A DNA stretch of 64,000 bases from Chitinophaga pendula (GTDB lineage Bacteria > Bacteroidota > Bacteroidia > Chitinophagales > Chitinophagaceae), in assembly GCF_020386615.1 (NCBI RefSeq), contig NZ_CP077769.1:2976001-3040000 (forward strand). The letters run 5' to 3'. Below, one piece after another: positions 26,649-48,170 of this stretch. Under the pieces are notes generated by a model, which was not told the DNA's origin, searched no databases, and worked only from the letters and a program-made list of their open reading frames with translations. A program made the translations under genes and the position numbers. How positions within the stretch are numbered: position 1 is the stretch's first letter; each line of letters opens with the position of its first letter.

Positions 26649-26867
26649 ATGAAAAAGAAGATGACATTCACCGATGCATTCAGCCGGGAGGCTTTGCGGT
26701 TTATCCGCGGCGGAGGCCGTGCGGCTTATGATACTTGTAGTATCATGCCCTGTAATGCGATCGGGCCGTTAAGCTGGTTGAGTTTTTGCAAAATGCACAC
26801 AGAGATCACGGGGGAATTATGTGTTTGTGGTGGTGTGGTACCGAATTCGATGTGTAAACTAGGTTAG
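26649..26867 (+). CDS. Double-glycine-leader, cysteine-rich peptide precursor
   Basis: 72 residues. Residues 11-22 (FSREALRFIRGG) fit the double-glycine leader used by C39-peptidase exporters: hydrophobic at -12, Ser at -11, Leu16 at -7, Ile19 at -4, Gly-Gly at -2/-1. The remaining 50 residues hold six Cys (30, 35, 47, 58, 60, 69), many Gly/Pro and few charges, as in bacteriocins or modified peptides. A strong terminator follows 32 bases after the stop, which supports real transcription. No C39 transporter or modification enzyme is encoded in the window, so it is an orphan here. The start codon is ATG at 26649. Antimicrobial or signalling role is inference. Confidence 0.62.
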   Translation: MKKKMTFTDAFSREALRFIRGGGRAAYDTCSIMPCNAIGPLSWLSFCKMHTEITGELCVCGGVVPNSMCKLG

Positions 26868-26898: not shown

Positions 26899-26934
26899 GG
26901 AGGCGTTCCTACTTGCAGGGGGCGCCTCTTTTTT
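26899..26934 (+). terminator. Terminator of the peptide gene
   Basis: GAGGCGTTCC pairs with GGGGCGCCTC (two G-T pairs) around a 9-base loop, followed by six T. Confidence 0.82.
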
Positions 26935-27189: not shown

Positions 27190-28557
27190 TTAGAACCGGA
27201 TGACTCCTTTGGGGAGGCCATCTGCCTGTACCCGGAGGAGATGAGAGATATATTCATTTTCCGGGTATGGGGTGAGGTGTTCTTTGAGGGCGGCGGGGTC
27301 GGTGATGGTTTCATCGCGGGAGAGGTATCCCATGCCATAGAAGCGGCCTTTTTCCACGAGGATATAGCTTTGTTCTGCGGGGTGCCGGCCTGCGCCGGTG
27401 ATGATGAAGGACGGCAATTGCTGGTGCAGGAAATTGATGGCGGTTTGCATGCGAAGGTTGTATTCGGTGACGCTTTCTCTTTTTTCGCAGGCGCCGTGGC
27501 AGATATGGCCGGTGAGGACGGTGCAGGGGCCATGTCCTTTCTGAAGGAAGCATAGTTTGGGGCAGAGGTCGAACTGGCGGATGAGTTTGCGCAGTACCTG
27601 TTGTCCATTGACGAGGAGGTTAAAGTCGTAGAGGGCGGTGGTGTATTTGCGTTTTTTTTCGATGGCGAGGCGGAGGTATCCGGCCTGGTCTTCGAAGGTG
27701 TAGAAGCCATACCGGAGTTCTACATGTTTCTGGGCGGCGTTGTAGGGAGGCCAGAGGCGTTTGATCTCGACGGATTCGAGGATATGGGCGATCAGTTCGG
27801 TGCCTGTTTCCTGGCAGGATATGCTGTATATATTGCGCAGGAATTCCTGTCGTTGCCGATTGGGTTTGTTGCCGGTAAAGTGGCTGTTGACCCTTTTTTT
27901 GATGTCTTTGGCTTTGCCTACGTAGACTACTTTTCCTTTTTGGTCGTGGAAGTAATAGACCCCTGGTGTCATGGGGAGTTGTTTGACCTGGTCGGGGGGC
28001 AGGTTGGGCGGCAGGAATTGTTCTTTGGAGCCCGCTTTGAGGGCGGAGGCGATGGCATGCTGATGGTCATCGGCGAGCATGCGTTCGAACAGTTTGACGG
28101 TGGCGGCGGCGTCGCCGGTGGCGCGGTGCCGGTCCTGGATGGGGATCTGCAGTTGCCGGCAGAGGTTGCCGAGGCTATAGGACGGCAGGCCGGGGAATAT
28201 TTTGCGGCCGAGGCGGACGGTGCATAGTTTTTTGCTGCGTAGTTCGAAACCTTCGGTATTGAGTTGGTATTTGACGAAGGAGTAGTCGAAGTTGACGTTA
28301 TGGGCGACGAATATTTTGTCTTGCAGGAGGTTGGCGAGGCGGGGTGCTATTTCGGAGAAGGCGGGTGCTGTTGCCACCATTTCGTCTGTGATGCCGGTGA
28401 GGGACTGGATGTAATAAGGGATGGGCATGCCGGGGTTGACGAGGGTATCGTATTGTTCGATCACTTCTTTTCCGTTATGGATGAAGACGGCTATTTCGGT
28501 GATGCCGTTTGCGCTGGCGTGGCCTCCTGTGGTTTCTATATCGACGATCGCGTACAT
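27190..28557 (-). CDS. DEDDh exonuclease fused to a UvrC-like GIY-YIG nuclease domain
   Basis: 455 residues. Residues 1-165 form a DnaQ-type 3'-5' exonuclease with Asp6-Glu8 (VDIETTGG), Asp91 in HNVNFDYSF, and His144/Asp149 in HRATGDAA. Residues about 199-280 form a GIY-YIG domain (GVYYF, VVYVGKAKDIKKRV, Arg/Glu region) as in UvrC and Cho, with a Cys-containing C-terminal region. This fusion occurs in several phyla, often annotated as DNA polymerase III epsilon-like; a DNA repair role is inferred. ATG 28557 was chosen because the upstream in-frame TTG lies inside a TATATTTG promoter box. Confidence 0.9.
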   Translation of the reverse strand: MYAIVDIETTGGHASANGITEIAVFIHNGKEVIEQYDTLVNPGMPIPYYIQSLTGITDEMVATAPAFSEIAPRLANLLQDKIFVAHNVNFDYSFVKYQLNTEGFELRSKKLCTVRLGRKIFPGLPSYSLGNLCRQLQIPIQDRHRATGDAAATVKLFERMLADDHQHAIASALKAGSKEQFLPPNLPPDQVKQLPMTPGVYYFHDQKGKVVYVGKAKDIKKRVNSHFTGNKPNRQRQEFLRNIYSISCQETGTELIAHILESVEIKRLWPPYNAAQKHVELRYGFYTFEDQAGYLRLAIEKKRKYTTALYDFNLLVNGQQVLRKLIRQFDLCPKLCFLQKGHGPCTVLTGHICHGACEKRESVTEYNLRMQTAINFLHQQLPSFIITGAGRHPAEQSYILVEKGRFYGMGYLSRDETITDPAALKEHLTPYPENEYISHLLRVQADGLPKGVIRF

Positions 28558-46763: not shown

Positions 46764-48170
46764 TTATTGCCATTTAGGATGTTGTTTTATGACTTCGTTC
46801 GCCATGATTTCGGCATTGGGTATAGGTATGTAATACTCTCTGCGGTCGGTGGTCAGGTTCACGGCACCCTGTGCCTGTGCCACGTCGTTGGGTCCCCTGT
46901 TAATAGGCAGGTTGTTACGACGCAAGTCTACATAGCGATGGGCTTCGAAAGCCAGTTCTTTGAATCGTTCTTCGATCACGGCGGTAAGGAGAGCATCAGG
47001 TGTAGCGTAGGCTACGGGTACATATCCTGCGATGCGAGCTGTACGTAGTGTGGTGAGGTCGGCATTGCCTGACAGCAGACCGGCGGCACCTTGTTTTGCA
47101 TATGCTTCTGCACGGATGAGGTACATTTCTGCTACGCGGAACAATTTAGCATCGGCGAGATTGACGAGTGCTGCCTGTCCGCCGACGAACTTCTGCACGG
47201 TCCAGCGAGGGTTGGTGGGGCTGGTGTTGAGTGCTTTGAAGTAGCTGGCAAAACGGATATCATTTGTTTTATCGAATAGATCCATCAGTTTGAATGCAGG
47301 TGCGTAGATGATACGGCCGGTGAGATCGCGGTAGTTGGTACCGAGGCGTTCCTGTCCGTTATCTCTTTTCAATTTCCATATTACTTCGGTGTTGTCGGTA
47401 TCCAGCCAGATATTGGGGAACTGAGTACGGGAAGCCAGTGCTGCTTTGTTGATGATCTCGGTGGCGAAACCTATAGCGGCATCGTAGTTCTTTTGCAGCA
47501 GTGCTGCGCGGGCCTGAATGGCGGTGATTGCGTTCAGTGTGATGCGGGTGTTGGGGGTAAAACTTGTTGGTATCAGTGCTTTGGCATCTGTGAGATCTTT
47601 GTTGATCTGTTCGAGGACCTTACCCACTGTTTCGCGGCCAGGTTTGCTGAGCTGGGATACGGTCATGACCGGTACGCCCGGCGAAGTTGGTTCATAGTCT
47701 ACAGCGTAGTACCGTAACAATTCGAGGTGTGCAAAGGCACGTAATCCCAGTAGCTCTCCTTTCAATCTATTTTTGGTTGCCAGTTCGGCATCGGTGGCAG
47801 GGATGCCATCGATGACTTTCAGCAGTCTGTTTCCCCTGTCGATGACATCGTAATAGTTGGCCCAGGCCGGCGCTGTTTCTCCGCCGCCGGCATCATATTG
47901 CCAGCGATATACGATCACTCCCCTACCCGTATTATTTTCTAACGGCATGGTGGCTTCGTCGGTGAGCAATGAGGTGGCGTATTGGGTATTTGCTGCTGCG
48001 AAGCCGGCATATACACCGACTACGCCGGTATTCAGGTCACTGACTGTTTTGATAGACGTAGCCTGGTCTACTGAGTCGGTTGGTTTCAGATCCAGATCGG
48101 CCAGGCATCCGGTGGCAAGTACGGAGAAGGCGAGGCTGGTATATAGTAGTTTATTTATATTCAGTTTCAT
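46764..48170 (-). CDS. SusD/RagB-family nutrient-binding outer-membrane lipoprotein
   Basis: 468 residues. Lipoprotein signal with Cys22 (LATGC), SusD-like helical N-terminal domain (ANYYDVIDRGNRLLKVIDGI, LKGELLGLRAFAHLELLRYY) and C-terminal SusD/RagB half (FRVAEMYLIRAEAYAKQGA, ERFKELAFEAHRYVDLRRNN). It caps the SusC channel encoded 17 bases upstream and binds the glycan or peptide to be imported. No hydrolase lies beside it, so the ligand cannot be named. Confidence 0.94.
   Translation of the reverse strand: MKLNINKLLYTSLAFSVLATGCLADLDLKPTDSVDQATSIKTVSDLNTGVVGVYAGFAAANTQYATSLLTDEATMPLENNTGRGVIVYRWQYDAGGGETAPAWANYYDVIDRGNRLLKVIDGIPATDAELATKNRLKGELLGLRAFAHLELLRYYAVDYEPTSPGVPVMTVSQLSKPGRETVGKVLEQINKDLTDAKALIPTSFTPNTRITLNAITAIQARAALLQKNYDAAIGFATEIINKAALASRTQFPNIWLDTDNTEVIWKLKRDNGQERLGTNYRDLTGRIIYAPAFKLMDLFDKTNDIRFASYFKALNTSPTNPRWTVQKFVGGQAALVNLADAKLFRVAEMYLIRAEAYAKQGAAGLLSGNADLTTLRTARIAGYVPVAYATPDALLTAVIEERFKELAFEAHRYVDLRRNNLPINRGPNDVAQAQGAVNLTTDRREYYIPIPNAEIMANEVIKQHPKWQ

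Follow-up and report, generated by a model that had tools for sequence, protein, structure and literature searches.

A small gene in a 64,000-nucleotide stretch of the Chitinophaga pendula genome (the whole stretch analysed, here called the window) encodes a peptide precursor with a double-glycine (GG) leader and six core cysteines. The earlier note on this DNA called the peptide an orphan. It is instead one of about eighty paralogues in the 7.66 Mb genome that share their order of cysteines; nine of them adjoin a C39-ABC exporter and a disulfide-making fusion at 4.21 Mb. The gene probably encodes a precursor from which a disulfide-rich mini-protein is exported, with the one station at 4.21 Mb serving about eighty scattered genes in trans.

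The precursor gene and its surroundings

The coordinates of the gene and of related features are given in Table 1. The leader has Gly at -1 and -2, Ile at -4, Leu at -7, Ser at -11 and Phe at -12, and so shows the GG end and the hydrophobic residues at -4, -7 and -12 of C39-type leaders. The core cysteines are residues 30, 35, 47, 58, 60 and 69. The 72-codon frame, C39-type leader, six-Cys core and terminator 32 bases downstream described in the earlier note were all confirmed from the sequence, and the gene is real. It was the only window frame to combine a GG leader with six or more core cysteines. In 60 shuffles of the whole window that preserved dinucleotides, three GG/six-Cys frames arose in total (0.05 per window). 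The terminator-like site alone is weak evidence because shuffles of the scanned 761 bases had a mean of 0.7 such sites (sd 0.8). The window has just one other frame that combines a GG-type leader pattern with four or more cysteines, at 46779 on the plus strand; it had no family match and is probably due to chance.

Table 1. Positions of the precursor gene, its parts and neighbour, and related features of the genome
Feature	Position	Strand	Basis or remark
Six-Cys GG-leader precursor gene, 72 aa	26649..26867 (stop included)	+	Frame without internal stop
22-residue leader with FIRGG at its end; cut proposed after residue 22 (GG)	26649..26714	+	Paralogue consensus; leader-only model
Core, 50 residues, Cys spacing 4-11-10-1-8	26715..26864	+	Frame translation
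AAAA (-14 to -11), within the A-rich start signal of the genome	26635..26638	+	
Terminator-like stem, 12 pairs, then T-run	26899..26929	+	Begins 32 bases past the stop codon
RNase_T/GIY-YIG gene, 455 aa	window 27193-28557	-	Open frame
Proposed station locus, with nine family members	G000:C1:4210495-4214598 (4.210-4.215 Mb)		1.2 Mb from the window gene
C39-ABC exporter, 733 aa	4.21-Mb locus		Beside the nine members
HlyD protein, 171 aa	4.21-Mb locus		Beside the nine members
C39-like/VKOR/thioredoxin fusion, 548 aa	within G000:C1:4210495-4214598		
Members with other Cys order	G000:C1 near 2895662, 4747839, 7328955, 821156, 3482844, 2497082		L065, L077, L083, L051, L255, L063

Searched as a single sequence against its own genome, the window gene had weak matches, some with the same leader and Cys order. 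A profile of 61 paralogues built with the window gene left out ranked it best of 1181 window frames (E 2.2e-7; runner-up 0.073). A leader-only model also found it (E 4.5e-5), and it was absent from the best five window frames of a core-only model. It is therefore chiefly the leader that places the gene in the family, and the Cys order lends support. The gene has the family leader and the six-Cys order including Cys4-x-Cys5, and its core loops of 11 and 10 residues are unusually long for the family. Its reading as a C39/GG-type precursor was borne out by the leader motif and the leader model. A single-sequence search of 5.8 billion proteins with the window protein returned only itself. Pfam gave no match to it, and NCBIfam gave one chance match and none to NF047798 leader_Chryseo.

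The earlier note placed the gene at an accessory-type site between a TetR operon and a decayed gene. The decayed gene was not confirmed; the right-hand neighbour is an open frame with RNase_T and GIY-YIG domains. The accessory part of the claim is plausible. TetR and FAD-monooxygenase were kept together in 26 of 29 other loci of the genus, and the RNase_T/GIY-YIG gene lay beside them in none of the 29, judged from flanks of only 1.5 kb.

A family of paralogues with a constant leader and a variable core

A profile of six members gave 81 own-genome matches at E<=10. Six of these were outside the stretches used and four were dropped (two with internal stops, one without ATG and one degenerate), leaving 71. 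A profile of 62 members gave 93 matches at E<=10 and 76 at E<=1e-5. Eleven precursors from this search brought the number read out to 82, and the remaining weak matches were left uncounted. The 82 precursors fall into 40 sites separated by more than 10 kb. Exactly six core cysteines were present in 80 and Cys4-x-Cys5 in 69. The profile itself favours six cysteines, which makes the six-Cys count partly circular, unlike the leave-one-out test of the window gene. Of 63 Cys4-x-Cys5 members, further analyses drew on 62, 60 or 24. The nearest Pfam matches of the family were leader motifs, namely ComC (15/62) and Bacteriocin_IIc (12/62) at E<=0.1. NCBIfam NF047798 was matched by 24/62 paralogues at the same threshold, the one shown scoring 19.6 bits against a curated cut-off of 23.5.

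Mean pairwise identity was 43% (0.43) for leaders and 10% (0.10) for cores with shared Cys pairs set aside. Core dN was below dS in all ten near-duplicate pairs compared (six own, four from genome G030), with dS often saturated. These were pairs of other members, the window gene itself lying outside the comparison. The frames are thus under constraint, and the ten pairs gave no sign of recent diversifying selection. Two clusters, at G000:C1 311618-313210 and 7388024-7390032, have near-duplicate members in common (311618/7389286 and 312704/7389835), which points to block duplication. In six members the cysteines are arranged differently: Cys2 and Cys3 are separated by three residues, Cys5 and Cys6 by one (4-3-9-4-1, for example). 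The arrangement is similar to the one in scorpion toxins and CS-alpha-beta defensins.

No specific constant neighbour gene was found around the scattered members, nor any recurrent neighbour able to be an immunity gene. SusC-type genes and regulators, both common in general, recurred near them by raw count. A shared promoter was considered and rejected. The candidate was a T-rich then A-rich stretch, mostly ending within 16 bp of the ATG, with a log-likelihood ratio of 126 compared to 75-87 in three control sets. We read it mainly as a start signal, because the A part was also present in control genes. The motif TAnnTTTG was rarer upstream of members (2/71 compared to 65/328 controls, whose starts are rough).

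Family matches at 1e-5 were found in 7 of 79 genomes of the genus: 76 in the own genome, 24 in G030 and one in each of five others. Thirteen distinct precursors were read out from the G030 loci examined, 12 of them with Cys4-x-Cys5. Four of the five single matches had six cysteines and Cys4-x-Cys5; that of G031 did not. The narrow family was present in at least 3 of 396 genomes of the order, own included, with at most 16 candidates scored per genome. A profile search of 5.8 billion proteins gave four matches: two members from the own genome, and two sequences in other records that closely resemble own members. The earlier note had named a lack of homologues with the Cys and GG conserved as one result that would refute its claim; such homologues exist in the own genome and in one sister species.

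In a profile search of the PDB with 24 cores, knottins made up 12/14 hits, and 0/10 hits when the same cores were reversed. PDB profile E-values were weak (0.0014 at best), and a further profile search also brought up chains of the scorpion KTx and EGF types. An EGF fold was considered and set aside, as it accounted for 7/28 hits of that further search but for less than knottins in the 24-core search. A typical core had no significant structural matches. The structure model of the window protein was poor (pLDDT 66.8) and a structural search with it gave two meaningless matches only. The profile hits, weak but consistent, suggest that the family cores are probably knottin-like.

The locus at 4.21 Mb and the linkage of the fusion to cysteine-rich peptides

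No exporter adjoins the window gene. The earlier note had expected it elsewhere in the genome, and seven PF03412 matches to C39 were indeed found there, with five C39 loci other than the one at 4.21 Mb. The exporter beside the nine members keeps the C39 Cys, His and Asp and is intact. The region examined around another C39 exporter contains, at L265 9303-9530 (near 5.069 Mb of G000:C1), a frame of GG type with six core cysteines and a different leader.

The fusion was the only match in a PF07884 search of the own genome, which gave no second VKOR. All 21 aligned fusions keep the two VKOR Cys pairs and the CxxC of thioredoxin unchanged. The catalytic C39 His was replaced in 20/21, the own fusion among them. 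The C39 Cys column held Cys in 0/21, and by eye the own fusion and six others have a Cys one residue away. From these substitutions the C39-like domain of the fusion appears to be inactive.

Relatives of the fusion were collected by a genome scan, and the best 80 of 269 represented 79 distinct loci. Frames were counted if they had a GG-type leader (G then G, A or T), at least four core cysteines and a start no more than 700 bp downstream on the same strand. Such a frame followed the fusion in 44 of the 79 loci among these best 80 relatives. About 1/79 was expected by chance because the rest of the same loci held 32 such frames, or 0.011 per 700 bp of strand. Most of the fusion-linked GG peptides differ in Cys type from the family of the window gene. 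In the same set of best relatives, an exporter N-terminus match outside the fusion was present in 59/79 loci and an HlyD match in 43/79. By the names of the loci, the pairing of fusion and GG peptide recurs in Chitinophaga, Mucilaginibacter, Pedobacter, Niastella, Flagellimonas and others, and for this reason may be a general Bacteroidota route to disulfide-rich peptides. Among the Cys-rich GG peptides that adjoin the fusion in further Chitinophaga genomes are L151 3155-3466, L167 3179-3508 and L149 3582-3770, some of which we take, by eye, to look like hevein-type or WAP-type domains.

Fusion relatives were found in 39/79 genomes of the genus and 21/117 genomes sampled at family level, own included. 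All seven genus genomes with a family match had the fusion compared to 39/79 overall (p 0.005, relatedness ignored). In G025, G026 and G028 the single family match follows the fusion match by about 100-145 bp, and in G030 two family matches lay after a fusion match. The family match of G031 was 2.9 kb from the fusion, and that of G029 was on a different contig from its fusions.

Proposed pathway, alternatives and relation to known systems

The precursor is presumably expressed and recognised by a C39-ABC exporter, which would read the leader, cut after GG and move the core out. The likeliest exporter for the window gene is the one at 4.21 Mb, beside nine sister precursors. At the membrane the fusion would oxidise the six core cysteines to three disulfides, while its apparently inactive C39-like domain would perhaps hold the leader. 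The product would leave the cell as a locked mini-protein, probably with a knottin-like fold. One station would thereby supply about eighty scattered precursors in trans. Counting against a shared station, the window gene is far from the 4.21-Mb locus and has no partner gene. The disulfide-bonded product that the earlier note named as a possibility is supported as the best reading. As a guess, the target could be rival microbes, fungi or foreign proteases, with antagonism or enzyme inhibition as the activity. We also suggest, tentatively, a venom-type repertoire of about eighty variable knottin-type mini-proteins made with one oxidase, in which the inactive C39 domain would be a leader receptor and the disulfides leader-guided.

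Four other explanations were weighed. The peptides could be unmodified bacteriocins of class II type whose disulfides form unaided, the fusion being unrelated. The class II and ComC leader motifs, as the best Pfam matches of the family, fit this, but no recurrent immunity-like neighbour of the scattered members was found and the fusion shows close linkage to Cys-rich GG peptides across many genera, which makes it unlikely. It is quite improbable that the genes are lanthipeptide precursors in which Cys is joined to dehydrated Ser/Thr by a LanM acting in trans, in the manner of prochlorosins. Such a system would fit the GG leaders and the scattering of the precursors, the own genome has five LanC-type domain matches over the cut-off, and the window core has seven Ser/Thr for its six Cys, enough for lanthionine. 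Against this, Ser plus Thr were fewer than Cys in 50/71 cores and numbered two or fewer in eight. The LanM and LanC regions examined (L085, L086) held no family members, while nine members adjoin the VKOR-thioredoxin fusion. At G000:C1:4389245-4390777 (4.389 Mb) a C39 match has as its direct neighbour a 1108-aa frame carrying a LanC-type domain, and this pair is probably a separate class II lanthipeptide system.

A role as cell-cell signals, their number reflecting many receptors, is very improbable. ComC-type leader matches occur in the family, and several members have, by raw count in the regions examined, response-regulator or sensor genes nearby, which are common; a constant receptor partner is absent, however, and the cores are very variable. 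That the window copy is a decaying relic is the least credible explanation, as it keeps an open frame, six cysteines, an intact leader, a start signal and a terminator-like site, although its loops are atypical, the core-only model missed it, it stands alone and two other members (2361044, 3526157) carry stops inside the match.

In the literature covered, taken by title and start of abstract and including few subscription papers, no C39-like/VKOR/thioredoxin fusion with GG peptides and no six-Cys GG peptides in Chitinophaga were described. The available part of PMC10352776 does not mention VKOR, thioredoxin or disulfide, and that of PMC9248904 does not mention bacteriocin or disulfide. If the mini-protein reading is true, the genome holds a naturally occurring library of disulfide-locked mini-proteins, spread over many genetic sites, together with a portable station for export and oxidation. 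Leader-guided disulfide folding would then become directly testable, in parallel to leader-guided RiPP modification.

Like inhibitor cystine knots (squash trypsin inhibitors, cyclotides and PA1b), the family has six cysteines with Cys4-x-Cys5 and gives weak profile matches to them. Some members presumably share the spacing of PA1b or bracelet cyclotides. The family differs in being bacterial and in its GG leader, and the loops of the window gene are longer. Knottin disulfides join cysteines 1-4, 2-5 and 3-6, a pattern that is hypothetical for this family. The leader resembles those of C39/GG class II bacteriocin and ComC precursors (PF03047, PF10439; NF047798, TIGR04149) in its GG and hydrophobic -4, -7 and -12 positions, and some paralogues match class II/ComC leader families weakly. 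Unlike those precursors the window gene has a six-Cys core and no adjacent exporter or visible immunity gene. Judged by its sequence it is a C39/GG precursor, and bacteriocin activity is putative. The 4.21-Mb fusion has both domains and the Cys pairs of VKOR-thioredoxin (DsbA-like) fusions. It differs from them by the added N-terminal C39-like domain, from which the catalytic His is gone in 20/21, and by the GG-peptide linkage. The arrangement as a whole is similar to that of the prochlorosins and synechococsins, with many scattered precursors, a conserved GG leader, a variable core and one enzyme acting in trans; 29 substrates for ProcM and 79 putative precursors for SyncM are given in the part of PMC10783134 available. 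Compared to the prochlorosins as described there, disulfide machinery rather than a lanthionine synthetase is located beside the precursors, the six cysteines are fixed, and the leader type and the phylum are different.
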